Source of the DNA: Clostridia bacterium
GTDB lineage: Bacteria > Bacillota > Clostridia > Oscillospirales > Acutalibacteraceae
Assembly: GCA_017473435.1 (NCBI GenBank)
Contig: JAFULG010000002.1
Span: 106,664-170,663 of the forward strand
Direction: 5' to 3'
Length of the DNA stretch: 64,000 nucleotides
Numbering within the stretch: the first letter of the stretch is position 1; each line of letters begins with the position of its first letter. Positions 19,580 to 29,070 of the stretch are shown here, piece after piece. The position numbers and the translations under genes are program-made. Under the pieces are notes generated by a model that was not told where the DNA came from, searched no databases, and worked only from the letters and a program-made list of their open reading frames with translations.

Positions 19580-19609
19580 AGTATACAATAAATATATATC
19601 CTTTGTCAA
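19580..19609 (-). promoter_or_regulatory. Promoter of fba
   Basis: Minus strand -35 TTGACA (19604-19609), 18-base spacer, -10 TATACT (19580-19585). It occupies the gap after the SpoIID-type gene. Confidence 0.8.
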
Positions 19610-19613
19610 GGTG

Positions 19614-21824
19614 TTAAACCGAAGGTGTGTATGTCATTGCAAAGCAATGTGAGCGTATTTTACCGCCAAGAAGCTTGATTCTGAAATCGTTACCCGTCAT
19701 AACCTGTCCGCCTACCTTGATTGAGGAAACATAACCGATATCCTCTCTTACAGCGGCGTCGTGAGAAATAATGTTAATCCAGGATGCAGGATCGCCTGAA
19801 AGGGTAATGCCCTGGGCTGCTGCAAGTGACTGAAGCTCTGCGCTGCTGATTGTTACTGTTGACTTGAAGTCCTCGTCGTAGTAGTCGCCGATAGAGCTTC
19901 TTGCACCGCTTAAGTAGGGAACACTTGTGCCGCTGTCCTTACCCCAACAGTTGTAGTATGAGGTAGTAACACCTGCACTCATTGCGTGGAAGGGTGTGAG
20001 AGCTGTAGCGCCGTTATTGGAGATATAGGCACCAATTTGGATTATCTCGTCAACTGCGGCATAAATTGAGCTTGCGGGAGTTTTACTTGCCTCAAGGAAA
20101 GCGTGGGAGCTTTTTGTGAGGTTTTCTGTAAAGATGGGATTTGCCGTGGCGATTGAATTGGGGTTATAGTATCTTGCAAAGGTATAGATTGCTACAACCT
20201 GTGCTTTAAGAGCCTCGTGGTTTGATGAAGCGGGCATTTCTGCTTCAAGTGCACGTGCGAGATACTCTCTTGTATCGTACTGCGTACCTTCGTAGGTTAT
20301 CTTCTGGGGATAGGTTTCGCCGGTAACAATATAAGTGTTGGGGTCATAGTAGTAGTGAGCGAGAATGTCTGCCCAGCTCCAACCAAGACCTGCAAGATAG
20401 TTTGCACCTACCTGGCTCATACCAACACCGTGACCGTAACCGAACACATAGAAGGTAAATGTACCGCTTGTTGAAGCTACGGGAGCTGCGGTGGGTGTAG
20501 CTGAAACATCGGGAGAGGAAGGCTCGGTAACACCGGCGTTTACTATTCCCTGTAATGTAGTCTGCTGTGAATTACCGCCGAAGGGATTACTTGTAGGCTG
20601 TGTAGGATTGTTTGCCGTGGTGCTGATTGAAGGATTCACTACCGGCTGAACGGTGGTAGGTGTTTTATCCTTAGTCATACCCATTACAAGCAAAATTGGA
20701 AGAATGATAGCAACAGCAAGAGCGCAAGCGGCGAAAATAATCATATTTTTAGAAAGCTTCTTTTCCTCAACGGGATCGGAAGCTGCGGCTGCTGCCTCTT
20801 CTGCTTCCTGTTTTTTCTGAGCCGCTTCAAGAGTCTTTATGATTTTGTCGGTTTTAGCCTCCACAAGACCTGAAAGCACAGCAAGAGCGTGAGGAAGAAT
20901 AGCTGCAAGATCCTCGGGGTTGGAGGTGTTGATTTTTTTCGCTTTTGCTGTTCCTTTGTCAACAACAGCGGCATAAGCAAAGTAAACTGTTTTGCCCTCT
21001 TCGTTTTCTGTTGAATAAACCTCGGATATTGCACCGCCCATTGTTGATTCCGAATTAAGCATAGCCTCACGAGCATGACGGATTATTTTTACCGATTCTG
21101 TTTCTGCTGTGGTTTCAGCTCCTGCTGCTTCGTCGTCAACAACCTCAACAAAGCTTACTCTTTCTGTGAGCTCGGGCACCTGATCGTAGAGGTTGTAAAC
21201 CCACATTGTTGCCTCGCTTGTTGCAAGGGCGAGCTTCTGGTCGGTTGTGGAAAGACAGGATACTATTTTTTCCACGTGGGGAAGAATATCTGTCTGAGGC
21301 ATTCTGATAGGAGGCCTTTCGCCCTTAGCGATAGCATCCATAGGCTCCAGAACATCTTCAACAAGAGATACAAGAACAGCGTCAATTCTTAAAAAGTCAA
21401 GAGGAAGATAGGTGAGCTTTCCGTGAAGCACATCAGTAGTGAAGCCGCAGAAAAGTCCGTCGGTTGTGAAGTGATAAATACTTCCTCTTGCTACAAGGCT
21501 GTGACCCATAAGGTCTATTTCGGAAATGTCATCTCCTGCATTTATAGTAATGAGGTCCTTGATTTCATCGCTTTCGTATTCTTCAAGCAGAAGCTTTGCC
21601 ATAAGCTCTCTTTTGCAATGGTTATAATCCACGCACTCGCAGCCTACGATAACATAGTCTCCCTTCTCTGTGGCGAGCAGAGCCTCGTCGTAAAGTGAAT
21701 CGCGAGTGGGGAAAATCTGGATTGTGTCATCAGAAAGGCCGAATTCTTCGGCGGCAAGGCCGATTTTGTATACGGCATCTGAGGCGGACGGTGAAATGTC
21801 GTCCAAAATAAATAATCTTATCAT
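19614..21824 (-). CDS. Membrane protein: degenerate CinA-like region, TM, circularly permuted SpoIID domain
   Basis: 736 residues from the ATG at 21824, chosen because GGGAGG lies 6 bases upstream. Residues 1 to about 330 are predicted cytoplasmic and by eye follow the order of CinA but without its catalytic motifs. An Ala/Glu/Lys coiled-coil stretch (about 325-358), one TM helix (360-382) and a Thr/Pro/Ser linker (385-452) follow. Outside the membrane is a SpoIID/LytB domain, but GHGVGMSQVGA (464-474), normally C-terminal, comes before AEMPASSNHEALKAQ (528-542), normally N-terminal; the chain ends with the VGGQVMTGNDFRIKL strand that usually leads into GHGVGMSQ. The Glu of EMP (529), the lytic transglycosylase residue, is kept. 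It probably cleaves peptidoglycan glycan strands. Last gene of the cinA-sortase operon, 32 bases after the sortase. Confidence 0.85.
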   Translation of the reverse strand: MIRLFILDDISPSASDAVYKIGLAAEEFGLSDDTIQIFPTRDSLYDEALLATEKGDYVIVGCECVDYNHCKRELMAKLLLEEYESDEIKDLITINAGDDISEIDLMGHSLVARGSIYHFTTDGLFCGFTTDVLHGKLTYLPLDFLRIDAVLVSLVEDVLEPMDAIAKGERPPIRMPQTDILPHVEKIVSCLSTTDQKLALATSEATMWVYNLYDQVPELTERVSFVEVVDDEAAGAETTAETESVKIIRHAREAMLNSESTMGGAISEVYSTENEEGKTVYFAYAAVVDKGTAKAKKINTSNPEDLAAILPHALAVLSGLVEAKTDKIIKTLEAAQKKQEAEEAAAAASDPVEEKKLSKNMIIFAACALAVAIILPILLVMGMTKDKTPTTVQPVVNPSISTTANNPTQPTSNPFGGNSQQTTLQGIVNAGVTEPSSPDVSATPTAAPVASTSGTFTFYVFGYGHGVGMSQVGANYLAGLGWSWADILAHYYYDPNTYIVTGETYPQKITYEGTQYDTREYLARALEAEMPASSNHEALKAQVVAIYTFARYYNPNSIATANPIFTENLTKSSHAFLEASKTPASSIYAAVDEIIQIGAYISNNGATALTPFHAMSAGVTTSYYNCWGKDSGTSVPYLSGARSSIGDYYDEDFKSTVTISSAELQSLAAAQGITLSGDPASWINIISHDAAVREDIGYVSSIKVGGQVMTGNDFRIKLLGGKIRSHCFAMTYTPSV

Positions 21825-21856
21825 TTTAACCTCCCGGTTTGAAACAAAATTTTGAT

Positions 21857-23827
21857 TTAGGAAATCTGCCATTTGTATGCGGTGGCGAAGGGATTTTTTG
21901 TTCCTTCTTCGTCATAATAAGCCTGGGGGAATCTGGGGTTTTCGTTTTCAACCGCACGGCTTGTATCAACCTCAAGGCTTTCGCCGGGTCTTACAAGTCT
22001 GGCAACAACAACGAGTCTTGCGTCGTCAAAGTCGTTACAGCAGGTTGAAAGGGTGAGTAGCTTATCTGAGGGCGTTACGTCAACACCGGTGTCATAGAGT
22101 GAACGCTGACTTAATTGGTTGAGGTAAGCTGAATAGTTAAGGCTGGTATTAAGGTTCGTCCAGAAATAATTGAATACATAGTTATTATCGTCTTCAGGAT
22201 TTATATTAGTTATCATAGTTGCGATTACCTTGAAGTTATAATCCTGGTAGATCGTGTTAAAGGATATTACGGGCGCTTCCTTGTAGCCTTCGAGAGTTCT
22301 GTACTGATCAAGGCAGGCGAATATTGAACCGTCTCTCATATGATGACCGAAAATAACGGTGTTTGTATCAAGTGTCTGAATCTCATTTCTGGCGGTGACG
22401 AAGGGACAGGCGTATTTTGTATCTTCACCGTAAAAGTTCTTTTCAACATATTCCTCGTCGTCTTCGCCCTGAACTATGGGGCTGTCAAGCTCTGAGCCTT
22501 CTGCGTAAAGATAGCCGACAAAGTCAGGGTTCTGTGCGTAGAGCTTTGCGTATTTAAGCTGCATATTTTCAGGGAAAATGAGGTCGGGATTTTCTTTTTT
22601 GAGAAGCTCCCACTGCTCTGCCGGGGTGAGAGGTCTTGTAGTGGTGGGCTTCGTTGTTGTTTTGTTAGGCTTTTTGGTGGTTGCAAGACTGTCCTGCGGA
22701 TTTGTTGTAGGTGTCGGAACAGTTGCTTCTGTAATAATTAGGTCGGAAATATTGCTCATAACCTGCTGATTCTGCTTGTGAAGTCTGTATTCATTGTAGA
22801 GACTGTAGCATGCAAATATAATTGCCACGACAGAAACAGTGAGAATAGCACGGCGTATTAATTCGGAAGAAGAAAGATTTTTGCTCTTTTTTGAGGAAGC
22901 TTCGATTTTTTCGGCAATTTCCTTTGCTTCATCTTCAGAAATCACCTTTTCAGGCTCTTCCTCATAATCTTCTTCATAAAGAGTAAGGTCAAAAGCTTCA
23001 TTTTCGTCAACATTTGCAGGCATATCTAAAAAGCTTGTCTTTGATGTCTGACCGGCTGTCATCACGCCGAATTCATAGGTGCCGATTTCCATTTCATCTA
23101 TTTTGAAATCTGCAGGCATCTCAACTCTCTTAGGCGGTGTACCGGCACGCTTTGTAGAGGGAAGCTCCACCTCGGAAACGTCAAAATCGTGGTTGTAGGG
23201 ATTATAGTTGTGCGGAAGAGTCTCGTGAAGTTCAAGGTCTTCCTCTTTTCTGTCAAAATCATCACTCTGAAAGAGGACTCTTGTGCCGGCGTCGTTTTCG
23301 GCAGGTTCTTCCTGAACAACCACAGCAGGCTGAGGTGCCTGATAGGGAGGCTGCTGATAGGGCACCTGATAAGGCGTCGGCATTACAGGGGGATATCCCT
23401 GATAATCAGCAGGCGGCTGACCGTATACCGGAACCTGTGCATAAGGCGGATAAGGCTGACCTGCAGGAGGATAGTAACCGATATAAGGCTGAGTCGGGTC
23501 AGGCTGGTAGAATGCGCCCTGAGGATAAACGGGTTGCTGACCGTAAACAGGCATCTGACCGTAGAGGGAGGGCTGCGGTTGGGCCTGATAGGGCTGAGGA
23601 GGTACTGTGGGAGCAGGTGCTGTGGGCCTCTTTATAGGAGGCGGAGCCTGACGGGCTGACCTGACGGTTTTCTCCTCTTTCTTTTCAAAGCCGAAGGCAA
23701 GGTCAAGGTCTGCCTGAGGCTTTTCGGGGTTTTCCTTAACGGAGTTCTGCATATATTCGTAACCTGAACGGTTAAAAATATCCTGTGACTCTTTATCTGA
23801 AAATTCGTCCTCAAAAATGTTTTTCAT
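21857..23827 (-). CDS. Class B sortase with very long Pro/Gln/Tyr-rich cytoplasmic region
   Basis: 656 residues, about 2.5 times a normal sortase. Residues 1-320 are predicted cytoplasmic; 65-170 are low-complexity repeats such as QMPVYGQQPVYPQG, 180-310 are acidic. A TM helix (about 325-345) and a Thr/Pro linker (365-400) precede the class B transpeptidase domain (about 420-615): His in FGHHMRDG (495-496), Cys596 in TLSTCCNDF and Arg604 in DDARLVVVARL, so the catalytic triad is complete. Sortases join surface proteins to peptidoglycan or to pilins; no substrate with a sorting signal is visible here. The ATG overlaps the cinA stop (ATGA), which indicates translational coupling, and the SpoIID-type protein follows. 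Confidence 0.9.
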   Translation of the reverse strand: MKNIFEDEFSDKESQDIFNRSGYEYMQNSVKENPEKPQADLDLAFGFEKKEEKTVRSARQAPPPIKRPTAPAPTVPPQPYQAQPQPSLYGQMPVYGQQPVYPQGAFYQPDPTQPYIGYYPPAGQPYPPYAQVPVYGQPPADYQGYPPVMPTPYQVPYQQPPYQAPQPAVVVQEEPAENDAGTRVLFQSDDFDRKEEDLELHETLPHNYNPYNHDFDVSEVELPSTKRAGTPPKRVEMPADFKIDEMEIGTYEFGVMTAGQTSKTSFLDMPANVDENEAFDLTLYEEDYEEEPEKVISEDEAKEIAEKIEASSKKSKNLSSSELIRRAILTVSVVAIIFACYSLYNEYRLHKQNQQVMSNISDLIITEATVPTPTTNPQDSLATTKKPNKTTTKPTTTRPLTPAEQWELLKKENPDLIFPENMQLKYAKLYAQNPDFVGYLYAEGSELDSPIVQGEDDEEYVEKNFYGEDTKYACPFVTARNEIQTLDTNTVIFGHHMRDGSIFACLDQYRTLEGYKEAPVISFNTIYQDYNFKVIATMITNINPEDDNNYVFNYFWTNLNTSLNYSAYLNQLSQRSLYDTGVDVTPSDKLLTLSTCCNDFDDARLVVVARLVRPGESLEVDTSRAVENENPRFPQAYYDEEGTKNPFATAYKWQIS

Positions 23828-25134
23828 CGGAAATCTCCTTGATATTTTTTTATAAATTCGTTGATATCTGTACCCTCTGACCTTTTTTCAGGGTAGCTTA
23901 AAGCACAAAGCCGAAGCTCGTTAAGAGCGTTCGATGCGCTGACTATTCTGTTGTAATCACGGCAGGTTTTGCTGTTGTGTCCCGTCTGAAGCTTTTTCAG
24001 ATATAAGATTTCACCGTCGGTTACAGCAATGTATATTGTTCCGACGGGAATTTCGGGATCATCGCTTGTAGGACCTGCCATTCCGGTTATCGCAACTCCG
24101 AAGGTGGCTTCGGAGAGTTTTTTTACACCGAGTGCCATTTCGGCAGCGACAATATCGCTGACTGCGCCGTAGCGGTCGAGATTTAATTTACTTACTCCAA
24201 GCACACTGTTTTTAATTTCGTTTGAGTAAGAAACCACACCGCAGTGGAAAACCGAGGAGGCTCCGGGAACATCTGTAACCCTTTTTGCGCAAAGACCACC
24301 GGTGCAGGATTCGGCAAAAGCCACGGTGAGATTTTTATCTTTAAGAAGCTTTACTGTGGCTTCCTCTACGCTTGCAACGTCAATTCCGTAAATATATGAG
24401 CCAAGGCGTTTTTCAATCTCTTTGACAACAGGTGTGAGAAGTGCTTCTGCAGCCTGCTCATTTTCTGATTTTGCAGTTATTCTTAAAAGAGCCTCACCGT
24501 TTTTGGCGTAGGGTGCAACGGTTGGATTGCTGCTTTCAAGCAGATCGGAGGCAAGCTCGGTCATAGCGCTTTCTCCGATACCGAAGGTGCGTATATTGTG
24601 AGAAACTATAGTTTCATATGAAAGCTTTTTCAGATAAGGCTTAACTGCGTCGAGAAACATCGGAACCATTTCCTTAGGCGGGCCCGGCAGAATAATGATC
24701 GCCTTGCCGTCTTTTTCCATAATGCAGCCGGGAGCAGTACCATTTTTGTTTTCGAGGATAATGGCATCCTCGGGAATGAGAGCCTGCTTTTTGTTGCTTT
24801 CAGGCATAGTGATATTTTTCACGGCGAAGAAGTCTTCAATCTTTTTAAGTGATGGCTCGTGAAGGATAAGCTCTTTTCCGAAAAATTCCGCACAGACCTC
24901 TTTTGTCATATCGTCGGGCGTAGGGCCGAGACCTCCGGTCAGAAGAAGAATATCGTTTCTTTCTAAGGCTTCTTTCAAAACAGAAAGGAGTCTCTCTCTG
25001 TTATCTCCTACGGTGCATTGGAAAAGCACATTGATTCCGAGTTGTGCCAATTCCCGGGAAAGAAACTGTGCGTTAGTGTTTACAATGTCGCCGAGGAGAA
25101 TTTCCGTACCGACGCTTATAAGCTCACAGTTCAT
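23824..25134 (-). CDS. cinA: CinA family protein (competence/damage-inducible, nicotinamide-nucleotide amidase)
   Basis: 436 residues, full-length two-domain CinA. The N-terminal MoCF-like domain (about 1-170) has VGTEILLGDIVNTN, LTGGLGPTPDDMTKE and the LPGPPKEM motif. The C-terminal amidase domain (about 255-410) has FAESCTGGL and GVAITGMAGPTSDD. Known family activities are ADP-ribose pyrophosphatase (N-terminal) and NMN deamidase (C-terminal) in NAD salvage. A tail of about 25 residues (YPEKRSEGTDINEF) extends beyond the usual end. A TATAAT -10 box and an AAAGGAGTG RBS lie upstream, and it is the first gene of the cinA / sortase / SpoIID operon. Confidence 0.95.
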   Translation of the reverse strand: MNCELISVGTEILLGDIVNTNAQFLSRELAQLGINVLFQCTVGDNRERLLSVLKEALERNDILLLTGGLGPTPDDMTKEVCAEFFGKELILHEPSLKKIEDFFAVKNITMPESNKKQALIPEDAIILENKNGTAPGCIMEKDGKAIIILPGPPKEMVPMFLDAVKPYLKKLSYETIVSHNIRTFGIGESAMTELASDLLESSNPTVAPYAKNGEALLRITAKSENEQAAEALLTPVVKEIEKRLGSYIYGIDVASVEEATVKLLKDKNLTVAFAESCTGGLCAKRVTDVPGASSVFHCGVVSYSNEIKNSVLGVSKLNLDRYGAVSDIVAAEMALGVKKLSEATFGVAITGMAGPTSDDPEIPVGTIYIAVTDGEILYLKKLQTGHNSKTCRDYNRIVSASNALNELRLCALSYPEKRSEGTDINEFIKKYQGDFR

Positions 25135-25227: not shown

Positions 25228-26400
25228 TTAATCAACGAATTCATATTTTACGTTTTCGATTGCTCTGTCTATCATTTCGGAGAAATCAAAAGCTGATTCA
25301 GCTTCTTCAATAAGCTTGAGAGTAGGTCTTGTTCTCGGATGCTTCGGTGTGAAAACCGTACAGCAATCCTCGTAGGGGAGGATTGAGGTTTCGAAAGCAC
25401 CGATAGCGCGAGAAATGGTGATGATCTCGTCCTTGTCCATACCGATGCAGGGACGGAAGACGGGCATATTTACTGCCGCGTCGGTACAAGCGAGAGCTCC
25501 GAGCGTCTGGGATGCAACCTGACCGAGGCTTTCGCCTGTTACAAGTGCACCGCAGTTATCTCTTTCTGCAAGACGGACTGAAATTTTCATCATAAGTCTG
25601 CGCATAATTATTGTGAAAAGCTCCTCGGGGCAATGCTCCTTGATAGCTTCCTGAATTTCGGTGAAATTAACAACGGCAAAATTGATTCTTCCGGAATATT
25701 TTGCAACGATTGAAACAAGGTCACGTACCTTCATCTCAGCGCGCTTGCTCGTATAAGGTGGTGCGGCAAAGTGGATAGCGTTGAGCTGTAAGCCTCTTTT
25801 TGACATCATCCAGCCTGCAACGGGGGAGTCAATGCCTCCTGAAACAAGAAGAGCAACTCTGCCGGCAGAGCCGACGGGCATACCGCCTGCGCCCTTTATC
25901 TGATTGCCGTGAATGAAAACATTCTTGTCTCTGACCTCAACGGTGACTATAATGTCGGGGTTGTGAACGTCTACCTTGAGAGAGGGGATGGAACGGAGAA
26001 GATGAGCGCCAACCTCACGGCAGATTTCAGGTGAGGTCATAGGGAATTTCTTATCGCTTCTTTTGGCGTTGACCTTGAAGGTTCTGATGCTTCTTAAATC
26101 GTCGCCGAGATATTCGAGGGCAACACGCTTGATTTCGTCAATGTCCTTATCGCAGACAACAGCTCTTGAAAAGGCGGCAATACCGAAAACCTTTTTAAGG
26201 GTTTCTACAGCTGCTTCAAAATCAATATCTTCTTCATTTGCCTCTGCAATTATTGTTGACTGTGACTTTGTAAAAGTAAATTTTCCTACAGAATCCAGCA
26301 GTCTGCGCTTGATGTTTTTAACGAGTATATCTTCAAATGTAGAACGGTTCAGACCCTTGAGGGCAATTTCACCGTTTTTGATAAGTAAAACTTCTTTCAT
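25228..26400 (-). CDS. thiI: tRNA 4-thiouridine synthase ThiI, short form
   Basis: 390 residues: N-terminal ferredoxin-like and THUMP RNA-binding region (about 1-165), then a PP-loop adenylating domain with VSGGIDSPVAGW (about 185-196). It activates uridine-8 of tRNA for sulfur transfer. The chain stops after the PP-loop domain, as in most Gram-positive versions, so the rhodanese domain of the E. coli protein is missing and sulfur must come from a partner persulfide. The cysteine desulfurase gene ends 11 bases upstream of its start, which is consistent with that role. RBS GAGGTTA. Confidence 0.95.
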   Translation of the reverse strand: MKEVLLIKNGEIALKGLNRSTFEDILVKNIKRRLLDSVGKFTFTKSQSTIIAEANEEDIDFEAAVETLKKVFGIAAFSRAVVCDKDIDEIKRVALEYLGDDLRSIRTFKVNAKRSDKKFPMTSPEICREVGAHLLRSIPSLKVDVHNPDIIVTVEVRDKNVFIHGNQIKGAGGMPVGSAGRVALLVSGGIDSPVAGWMMSKRGLQLNAIHFAAPPYTSKRAEMKVRDLVSIVAKYSGRINFAVVNFTEIQEAIKEHCPEELFTIIMRRLMMKISVRLAERDNCGALVTGESLGQVASQTLGALACTDAAVNMPVFRPCIGMDKDEIITISRAIGAFETSILPYEDCCTVFTPKHPRTRPTLKLIEEAESAFDFSEMIDRAIENVKYEFVD

Positions 26401-26411
26401 AATTAACCTCT

Positions 26412-27539
26412 TTATTTCTTTCTTATCACCTTGACTGCCGTATCAATGCCTTTAAGGAAATAATCAAGCTGTTCTTTGTTAGTGAAACGTGACAAGCTTA
26501 CACGCAAGGATGAATCTATGAGGGCGTCCTCGAGTCCCATTGCGGTAAGAACCGGACTTTTGTGACCCTTTGAGCACGCTGAGCCTGATGAAACGTAGAT
26601 TTCCATATCGGAAAGGAGATTGAGCACCGTTTCGCTCCGTAAGCCATTGAGTGAAAGGTTTACGATGTAGGGCAGGGCATTTTCGGGAGAGTTGATTGTG
26701 ACAAAATCTCTTTTATTGAGCTCTCCGACAAGATAATCGCGAAGCTCTGTTACTTTGGTCAGGCTCTCTTTTATCCTGAGCTCCTGCATAGCTCCGTAAA
26801 ATCCGGCGATTGCAGGCATAGGCTCTGTGCCGGGTCTGATATCTTTTTCCTGTCCGCCGCCTGCGGCAACGGGAGAGAGTTTTGTTCCTTCTTTTACAAA
26901 AAGAGCTCCTGTTCCTTTCGGGCCGTGGATTTTATGGGAGCTTACCGTCATAAGATCAATACCCCATTTTTTTGGAGTAAGAGGAATTTTGCCGAAGGCC
27001 TGTACTGCATCGACATGAATGAGAGCAGGCGAGCTTTTACGCTTTACAATTTTAGAAAGCTCCTCTATGGGCTGAATTGTACCGACCTCGTTGTTGACCG
27101 CCATAATGCTTATAAGGATTGTTTTATCGTTAACGGCGCTTTCAAGCTCAGATAAGTCAATGAAGCCTTTTTTATCTGTAGGAATTCTGATAACCTCAAA
27201 GCCTTCTGCTTCAAGGCGGTCAAAGGCTTTTTGCACACTGGGATGCTCGACGGCAGAGGTGATTACACGGCTGCCCTTTCTTTTGTGGGCGTGAGCCGCA
27301 CCGAAAACGGCAAGGTTGTTGCCCTCTGTGCCACCGCTTGTGAAAAACACTTCTTTTTCCGTGCAGGAAAGATTTTGCGCAAGGCACATTCTCGCCTGCT
27401 TTAAAAGAAGGTCTGCTTCAATTCCTTTTTCGTGAAGTGAGGACGGATTGCCCCATATGTTTTCTATTGAATCAACCATCTTTTCCTTTGCTGTTTTGCA
27501 AAGCGGAGTAGTGGCGCTGTTATCAAGATAAGCTTCCAT
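26412..27539 (-). CDS. NifS/IscS-type cysteine desulfurase
   Basis: 375 residues, PLP-dependent. It releases sulfur from cysteine as an enzyme persulfide. Motifs: YLDNSATTPL at the start, the PLP lysine in SSHKIHGPKGTGALF (about 203) and the active-site Cys in SSGSACSKGHKSP (about 324). I prefer the ATG at 27539 because GGAGG is 7 bases upstream; the ATG at 27545 directly abuts the RBS. It is transcribed with thiI and is probably the sulfur donor for tRNA 4-thiouridine rather than the general Fe-S machinery, as no iscU-like gene is near. Confidence 0.94.
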   Translation of the reverse strand: MEAYLDNSATTPLCKTAKEKMVDSIENIWGNPSSLHEKGIEADLLLKQARMCLAQNLSCTEKEVFFTSGGTEGNNLAVFGAAHAHKRKGSRVITSAVEHPSVQKAFDRLEAEGFEVIRIPTDKKGFIDLSELESAVNDKTILISIMAVNNEVGTIQPIEELSKIVKRKSSPALIHVDAVQAFGKIPLTPKKWGIDLMTVSSHKIHGPKGTGALFVKEGTKLSPVAAGGGQEKDIRPGTEPMPAIAGFYGAMQELRIKESLTKVTELRDYLVGELNKRDFVTINSPENALPYIVNLSLNGLRSETVLNLLSDMEIYVSSGSACSKGHKSPVLTAMGLEDALIDSSLRVSLSRFTNKEQLDYFLKGIDTAVKVIRKK

Positions 27540-27569
27540 GGGCATACCTCCTCATTATAATTACAGTAC

Positions 27570-27735: not shown

Positions 27736-29070
27736 ATGGAAAATCTGAAAGACAGAACACAAGGAAAAATTATAGGATTTTTATGTATTGTGTGTCTCGT
27801 GCTGGCGGCATCGAGCGCGTATTTTGCTTTCACGGCAAGTCGATACAAGGTGCAGGAAAAGCTTGTTAACGAGAAGGCTGTCAGCACTCTTTGCGAAAGT
27901 CTTGACGCAATAAGCGTGAATCTGAAAAAAGGGTCTTACAGCGGTGACGGTAAGGCGCTTTCAAAAATCGGCAATGAGCTTTGCCGTCAGGCTGCAACAG
28001 CAAAAGAAAACCTTAATCTGCTTGCGCCTGAAAATGAGCTTGCCGATGAGGTGTACAAATTTCTTTCTCAGGTAGGCAATTATACCCTTGCCGTTGCTTC
28101 GGGAAAGGAGAGTATAAGCAAGCAGGAGGCAGAAAAGCTGAAGGAGCTTTATGCTTATGCACAGGCACTTTCAGACGGTATGAATGAAATATGCTTCGAT
28201 TATTATAACGGGGATGTAACCTTTGATGAGGCTATGGGGGACCTAGATGTCAGATCATCCGATGATGTCAGCGGCTTTTATATGAGGGTTTCCGATACTG
28301 CACAGGCTCTCGGCGATTATCCTACCCTAACTTACGACGGACCTTTTGCTGATAATATCCAGGTGACGAAATCGGTTTTTCTTGAAGGCGAGGGAGAAAT
28401 AACTGATGAAGAGGCGGCTGAAAAAGCGGCGGAAATTCTTGGCGTTCAGACGTCAGTTTTAAAGCGTGAGGAAAATGTCAATTCGCAGATAGAGCTTTAC
28501 TGCTTTTCAAAGGGCAAAACTGATATAACTATAACCAAAAGAGGCGGCTATCTCTGCTCTCTTATAAGTGACAGCTATGCTTATGAGGAAACCATAAGCG
28601 CAAAGGAAGCGGTCAAACGGGGAGAAGAATACCTTCAGAAGCTTGGCTTTAGCGGAATGGAGAGCAGCTATTACAGCGTATATGACGGTATATGCACGGT
28701 GAACTACGCGTGGAAAAATGATGATGTTATTTATTATTCCGATCTTGTGAAGGTGAGCATCAGTCTTGATTCGGGAGCGCTTGTAGGCTTTGATGCCAAG
28801 CCGTACCTTCTTCATCACCGCACGAGAAGCTTTGAAAATCCGACAGTTACCGAGAACGAGGCGGCAAAAAAGCTTTCGCCGGTTCTTGCGATAACAGAGC
28901 ACGAAATGGCGGCCATTCCTCTTGATACGGGGAAGGAGGCGCTTTGTCACGAGTTTCACTGTAAGGATGCTGAGGGTCAGGAGGTGCTTGTATATATAGA
29001 TGCGCTGACGGGCGAACAGAGAGATTTGTTGATTCTGCTTTATTCTGATGGCGGCGTTTTAACAAAATGA
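27736..29070 (+). CDS. ypeB: Germination protein YpeB
   Basis: 444 residues. An N-terminal membrane segment (about 12-33) is followed by a helical region and two PepSY-like modules (about 200-290 and 290-440), the layout of YpeB, which holds the cortex-lytic enzyme SleB in the spore in Bacillus. Seen: NLKDRTQGK before the TM segment, the LDVRSSDDVSGFYMRV region and VYIDALTGEQRDLLILL at the end. No sleB lies next to it, unlike in Bacillus, so its partner must be elsewhere. GGGAGG is the RBS. Upstream, TTGACA at about 27650 and a GAATA/TTAATAT pair near 27656-27682 could be a vegetative or a forespore (SigG-like) promoter; I cannot decide. Confidence 0.88.
   Translation: MENLKDRTQGKIIGFLCIVCLVLAASSAYFAFTASRYKVQEKLVNEKAVSTLCESLDAISVNLKKGSYSGDGKALSKIGNELCRQAATAKENLNLLAPENELADEVYKFLSQVGNYTLAVASGKESISKQEAEKLKELYAYAQALSDGMNEICFDYYNGDVTFDEAMGDLDVRSSDDVSGFYMRVSDTAQALGDYPTLTYDGPFADNIQVTKSVFLEGEGEITDEEAAEKAAEILGVQTSVLKREENVNSQIELYCFSKGKTDITITKRGGYLCSLISDSYAYEETISAKEAVKRGEEYLQKLGFSGMESSYYSVYDGICTVNYAWKNDDVIYYSDLVKVSISLDSGALVGFDAKPYLLHHRTRSFENPTVTENEAAKKLSPVLAITEHEMAAIPLDTGKEALCHEFHCKDAEGQEVLVYIDALTGEQRDLLILLYSDGGVLTK

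Follow-up and report, generated by a model that had tools for sequence, protein, structure and literature searches.

The gene under study lies on the minus strand of the window, by which we mean the whole 64,000-nucleotide stretch of DNA that was analysed. The coding strand is the minus strand, running from 21824 down to 19614; the plus-strand reading of 19614..21824 contains stop codons. The coordinates and residue numbers of the initial annotation proved exact (motif positions 464-474, 528-542 and 704-718 were recomputed in the 736-residue protein). The start at 21824 is supported by a GGGAGG sequence just before the ATG, and the coding sequence is conserved in loci L004-L006. The protein is laid out as follows.

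19614..21824, minus strand: coding sequence, 736 amino acids, with a CinA-like domain, a transmembrane helix, a linker and a permuted SpoIID domain
21830..21835, minus strand: ribosome-binding-like GGGAGG, 5 nt before the ATG (by eye)
20835..21824, minus strand: CinA-like domain, residues 1-330, presumably cytoplasmic (N-domain profile, hhalign, motif survey)
20676..20750, minus strand: likely transmembrane helix, residues 359-383, KNMIIFAACALAVAIILPILLVMGM (hydrophobic stretch, by eye)
20466..20675, minus strand: linker rich in Thr, Pro, Asn and Ser, residues 384-453 (sequence, by eye)
20349..20465, minus strand: GHGVGMSQ segment, residues 454-492, C-terminal in ordinary SpoIID
20313..20348, minus strand: joint between the former C- and N-termini of the SpoIID domain, residues 493-504
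19620..20312, minus strand: EMP/EALKAQ segment, residues 505-735, N-terminal in ordinary SpoIID (PF08486, alignment to 5i1t)
20238..20240, minus strand: codon of Glu529, counterpart of the EM-motif glutamate of SpoIID (alignment to 5i1t)

The neighbouring genes on the same strand are these.

21857..23827, minus strand: class B type sortase with TLSTC, syntenic partner
23824..25134, minus strand: cinA (MoCF-KH-PncC), syntenic partner
25228..26400, minus strand: thiI, conserved neighbour
26412..27545, minus strand: nifS-like cysteine desulfurase, conserved neighbour

The sortase scored 37 bits with PF04203, above the cut-off, and 146.6 bits with TIGR03064, just below the cut-off of 153.75. A YpeB-like germination protein (27736-29070) is divergent from nifS and adjoins the locus in several other fetched genomes as well. 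Downstream, fba is also on the minus strand and may have its own promoter, judging by eye from a TTGACA and a TATACT separated by 18 nt at 19580-19609.

The initial annotation proposed that the two signature segments of a SpoIID domain have exchanged places in this protein, and this arrangement was confirmed. GHGVGMSQVGA (464-474) precedes AEMP...EALKAQ (528-542), and the protein ends in the strand that precedes GHG in Clostridioides difficile SpoIID. Exactly one GHG and one EMP string occur in the 736 residues, and when both pieces were masked a profile scan of the window protein listed no further EMP or GHG piece. PF08486 (SpoIID) matched residues 515-578 with 34 bits against a cut-off of 23, and TIGR02669 matched the whole protein with 88.2 bits against a cut-off of 83.3, split over two stretches. 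Membership of the SpoIID/LytB family is thus indicated by profile scores above the cut-offs and by the Glu and GHGxGMSQ, while the EMP-before-GHG order of that family is absent. The SpoIID proteins of C. difficile (5i1t) and B. subtilis share both segments, the EM-motif glutamate and GHGVGMSQxGA with the window protein, and differ from it in segment order and in the attached CinA-like domain. In phmmer comparisons with 5i1t, residues 509-716 aligned to chain positions 57-267 (i-Evalue 1.2e-5) and residues 453-495 to positions 282-324 (i-Evalue 3.9e-6); together the two stretches span the whole SpoIID domain of 5i1t (chain 57-324, except a short gap) in swapped order. With TIGR02870, the equivalog for stage II sporulation protein D, the window protein scored 87.5 bits, below the cut-off of 234.75, and it is therefore not the sporulation SpoIID; the genome seems to encode that protein separately (L001). 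A third SpoIID-type protein of the same genome (L003 364-1770) has a domain that is shortened and holds GLSQWG; the repeated segments after it resemble, by eye, peptidoglycan-binding repeats.

A parent profile was built from 24 canonical SpoIIDs and used either singly or joined to itself. The window protein scored 113.6 bits with the single profile and 177.7 bits with the duplicated one, a gain of 64.1 bits, and the duplicated profile gave one alignment across the junction (model positions 231-508). Gains above 10 bits were found for 11 of 38 permuted rows and for none of 21 canonical rows, the largest gain among these controls being 7.8 bits. The 27 permuted rows that gained 10 bits or less include all three actinobacterial rows; their small gain is explained by local alignments that break inside or before the EMP segment and leave the junction unbridged. 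Judged by the complete coverage of the domain and by the alignment through the junction of the self-joined canonical profile, the swapped order is by sequence a circular permutation of the SpoIID domain, as first proposed, and the domain is a circularly permuted variant of the known SpoIID/LytB family. We infer that the SpoIID fold is kept, since about 12 residues would bridge the former termini and the new termini would fall in the loop that leads into the GHG strand. It is very improbable that the permutation is only apparent, with the GHG piece swapping into a neighbouring chain, or serving as a stray wall-binding motif beside an EMP piece that folds by itself. The 12-residue joint is short and taken by itself is compatible with such swapping, but the window protein has one copy of each piece, no ORF with two GHG pieces was found among 5581, the key residues of both pieces are kept together in 34 of 34 permuted rows, and there are proteins made of little beyond the permuted domain (L237, L241-L243, L246 and L251).

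A search for other proteins with the same order, which the initial annotation had suggested, found it in many genera of the family. In the window genus the permuted order is conserved in 32 of 34 genomes, counted as a single unbroken match that starts at residue 238 or earlier and ends at residue 734-735; of the exceptions, G207 had no match and G220 had a short ORF whose matches were all of the canonical kind. Three relatives, 52-70% identical over the best segment, come from Oscillospiraceae/Clostridia metagenome assemblies, one of them from goat cecum, and by eye nifS, thiI, cinA and sortase genes adjoin the gene in all three. CinA-type SpoIID proteins were sampled from 13 genera of the family: nine had the permuted order only (g1, g113, g119, g124, g125, g128, g155, g205 and g226), three the canonical order only and one both. 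Genus g191 has 10 of 11 genomes permuted, read from coordinates, and G480 alone canonical; among its fetched members, four of five are permuted and G480 is canonical. Canonical SpoIID was present in five of five fetched members of genus g202, and in genera g131 and g159 the real CinA is fused to canonical SpoIID. In three of the canonical-order orthologues of g202 (L168, L169 and L172) GHG is decaying to GSGSG, GVGYG and GSGLG, and L168 is without the catalytic glutamate as well.

Loci were taken from the matches listed, comprising all with an open frame of at least 650 amino acids and about 14 shorter ones, and the order by genus was read for the window and for loci from L167 on. In the loci available for this count, after de-duplication by the last 150 or 120 residues and with ORFs cut by contig ends included, permuted ORFs numbered 70 with a CinA-type part and 10 others, and canonical ORFs 8 with such a part and 43 others. 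In a sample of 197 genomes of the order, the window genome was, among the matches listed, the only one with a match over the full length of the permuted domain, and 35 of 35 pairs of nearby EMP and GHG pieces on one contig, paired by hand and again among the matches listed, were in normal order. Several proteins of 332-478 amino acids (L237, L241, L242, L243, L246, L251 and L225) carry the permuted domain without a CinA-like part, so that the permuted form is not confined to the CinA-like locus; by eye, several of them have a signal-like start.

The N-terminal half of the window protein (residues 1-330) matched no Pfam family above its cut-off. A profile of the N-domains of the family, built without CinA, found the CinA proteins of L004-L006 among 649 ORFs (E values of 4.5e-15, 8e-12 and 6.8e-10), and no other outsider appeared in that search up to an E value of 10. 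When 22 N-domains were compared with four CinA proteins by hhalign, the match had a probability of 98.2% (E 5e-14) over 262 columns; with a four-row N-domain alignment CinA received 0.6%, and searches of Pfam with four-row profiles gave nothing on CinA, so that the homology emerged only once the rows were more diverse. The Pfam CinA model matched one of the 22 N-domains, at an E value of 0.003. TGGxGP and AESCTGG, the CinA motifs as patterned on the window cinA, were absent from every ORF that matched the N-domain profile at E <1e-25. The available text of a study of the Thermus CinA deamidase describes the use of Lys-301 with Thr-340 (PMC4246079), and by eye the stretch expected to hold the CinA lysine is missing in the N-domains. 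Given the homology to CinA, the absent motifs and the missing lysine stretch, the N-terminal half is by profile comparison a degenerate CinA homologue. It is homologous to CinA (MoCF-KH-PncC) over the MoCF and PncC parts and its gene is near cinA, but it differs in lacking the motifs and in the likely transmembrane helix that follows the domain. The CinA-like domain is probably a sensor or scaffold.

Searches with four N-domains gave matches in 53 of 300 genomes and 24 of 135 genera of the window's own family, and searches with 22 N-domains in 223 of 398 genomes and 85 of 135 genera, with CinA itself among the proteins counted. Outside the family the 22 N-domains matched weakly (best E 9.5e-11), mostly to ORFs of 350-450 amino acids, which is the size of CinA.

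The gene order nifS-thiI-cinA-sortase-CinA-like protein was found in 48 of 61 loci (60 fetched plus the window), including all six canonical CinA-like loci. The sortase slot consists of one to three ORFs, and in some loci the cinA ORF is 157-208 amino acids long. The 13 exceptions are contig-end cuts, fusions (L204, L207-L211) and one paralogue elsewhere (L225). Depending on genus and locus, the last gene ends in permuted SpoIID, in canonical SpoIID or in no SpoIID (for example L193, L198, L200 and L212-L220). By their place and their N-domain, the canonical- and permuted-order versions are orthologous. In genus g128, ORFs of 229-265 amino acids near the locus (L186 925-1719, L189-L192) matched the N-domain weakly and may be unrelated.

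Fusions among all the loci collected, counted with the same de-duplication and likewise including ORFs cut by contig ends, comprise 15 of real CinA with a sortase domain, 7 of a sortase domain with SpoIID, and 7 proteins that hold real CinA, a sortase domain and canonical SpoIID in one chain. The window type, a CinA-like domain with permuted SpoIID, was counted 72 times, the CinA-like domain with canonical SpoIID 6 times and the CinA-like domain alone 35 times. Chains of CinA, a sortase without TLxTC and canonical SpoIID, 1151-1227 amino acids long, were seen in L207 (895-4347), L208 (5904-9584) and L258-L262; the sortase domain of L207 was matched by our own profile and not by the sortase model of Pfam. 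A crude pattern finds no TLxTC in 21 of the 29 fused sortase domains. The class B sortase, which adjoins the gene of the CinA-like protein in the loci with the full order, is a separate protein in the window and is fused to CinA or SpoIID in other genera. We argue from these fusions that CinA, sortase and SpoIID act together.

The permuted order also occurs in Actinomycetota. In plasmid records, all three SpoIID proteins fetched from this phylum (Rhodococcus, Nocardia and Tsukamurella) were GHG-first, and eight of eight fetched from other phyla or genera were canonical. Rhodococcus ruber WP_017681162, Tsukamurella tyrosinosolvens WP_068740546 and an unannotated locus of Nocardia farcinica resemble the window protein in placing GHG before EMP, but have 113-121 residues between the segments in place of the joint of 12. 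No CinA-like part was found in these SpoIID/LytB proteins, the Rhodococcus protein carries an LGFP repeat, and a search of phage records gave no match to that Rhodococcus protein.

A tree of the SpoIID domain was computed from 94 rows with the segments brought into a common order; left out were L003, most rows of the window genus, and short EMP pieces other than those from Actinomycetota and Thermus. AU tests were run on thinned sets of 75 rows, of 64 or 60 rows for the tests on g202, and of 26 rows for the tests on the N-domain. On the domain tree the actinobacterial permuted rows are separate from the permuted rows of the family. A common origin of the order in the Bacillota family and Actinomycetota, with all permuted rows forming one clade, was rejected (p 0.000194). 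The actinobacterial permutation is apparently of separate origin, as judged from three rows, one of which has under half of its columns filled. The fewest order changes on the domain tree number four, and its starred branches force at least three. A clade of the family-permuted rows without G480 was rejected (p 0.00175), also when genus g202 was left out (p 0.000138), and a single permutation in the family after g202 had split off is compatible with the data (p 0.31). The N-domain, which has no residues in common with the permuted part, also puts G480 among permuted rows on its tree (AU p 8.4e-6 on the N-domain alone), and the AU test for its exact place beside four g191 rows gave p 0.056. On this second tree L206 is labelled as having no SpoIID, which says nothing on a missing domain since the ORF is cut by a contig end.

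These placements show that G480 nests among permuted relatives. Its GHG segment has an insert, YG(N/D)S.G..NW, that among 13 rows is common only to L173, L174 and L175, and over 43 residues the piece is 72-74% identical to those of L173 and L174, which argues against recent copying from them; with the housekeeping SpoIID of the window genome the piece shares 49% identity. A search of 5581 ORFs, a set without 20 later loci, gave none with two GHG segments. In masked proteins, a search for remnants gave no GHG piece at E 0.01 or below (best E 4.5), and the best EMP candidate was a weak one at E 0.006 in masked L182.

The more economical reading is that the order in G480 flipped back to canonical, which draws on one genome and on parsimony; G480 would be explained equally well by an ancestor in which the GHG segment was present twice and from which one or the other copy was lost. 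We think it rather unlikely that G480 instead kept the ancestral canonical order while its relatives became permuted in parallel, or that it is an assembly artefact. G480 is a single genome in 80 contigs, the outgroup SpoIIDs are canonical, and the AU tests cannot tell parallel gains from a switch back, all of which would fit that alternative; against it, the open frame of G480 is intact, and on both trees G480 falls among permuted rows of g191, outside which come further permuted genera, so that a single switch back takes fewer changes than parallel gains. On the switch-back reading, the family would have undergone one permutation, probably when the domain was duplicated in tandem and its outer pieces were lost, and at least one switch back to canonical order in G480, with a second permutation and differential loss in the descendants of a GHG-EMP-GHG ancestor as the two possible routes. 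We are evenly divided on the broader proposal that the permutation is repeatable and reversible: that it arose separately in Actinomycetota and in a Bacillota family, that the GHG segment moved and moved back within one syntenic gene, and that a surface machine of CinA, sortase and SpoIID links the permuted form to a CinA-derived sensor.

The catalytic glutamate of EMP, which the initial annotation had reported as kept, is present as Glu529 in the window protein and in 34 of 34 permuted rows counted, in which the GHG histidine, the serine, the glutamine and the aspartate of SHD are invariant too. According to the available text of the respective studies, SpoIID of C. difficile requires Glu101 and works after SpoIIP has stripped the peptides (PMC6221140), and SpoIID of Waddlia, a non-spore-former, is a lytic transglycosylase with lowered activity when an aspartate is changed (PMC6635528). 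By eye, the zinc-binding Cys/His motif described for the C. difficile protein in the same available text (PMC6221140) has no evident counterpart in the window protein. With the catalytic glutamate kept, glycan cleavage by the permuted domain is plausible.

The main rival to glycan cleavage is that the domain serves solely as a catalytically dead, glycan-binding scaffold that positions the sortase or the membrane protein itself at the wall, which we regard as possible and less probable than cleavage. The degenerate N-domain and the fused sortases without TLxTC indicate that loss of catalysis is common in this module, and among canonical CinA-bearing rows five of eight (including L168, L169 and L172) have lost the GHG histidine and one the glutamate; the permuted rows, on the other hand, retain all five of the residues named above without exception. 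We consider it likely that the window protein is a membrane-anchored enzyme acting on peptidoglycan, with the permuted SpoIID outside the membrane and the degenerate CinA homologue inside. In such an enzyme the permuted domain would cleave glycan strands as SpoIID does, the CinA-like part would be a non-catalytic sensor or scaffold, perhaps for a pyridine nucleotide, and the protein would open or mark the wall at the sites to which surface proteins are attached by the neighbouring sortase.

Most known cases of natural circular permutation are between families that are only distantly related. In this case both orders are found in orthologous genes at one chromosomal place, and once within one genus; with both orders in close relatives, the path, direction and cost of a permutation are open to study. 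No published permuted SpoIID was found in a search of titles and the starts of abstracts, with most subscription journals lying outside its range, and no description of a CinA-sortase-SpoIID surface machine was found either. The available part of a review on SpoIID/LytB describes varied domain architectures and mentions no permutation (PMC6934232). Profile libraries built on the canonical order split permuted proteins into two matches, as TIGR02669 did here. If the proposal holds, the SpoIID fold would act as a module of two parts that may follow each other in either order with the active site kept. That CinA, sortase and SpoIID are linked both as neighbours and by fusion points to an unstudied surface system of Clostridia, in which a pyridine-nucleotide enzyme, or a degenerate copy of it, may be tied to remodelling of the wall.
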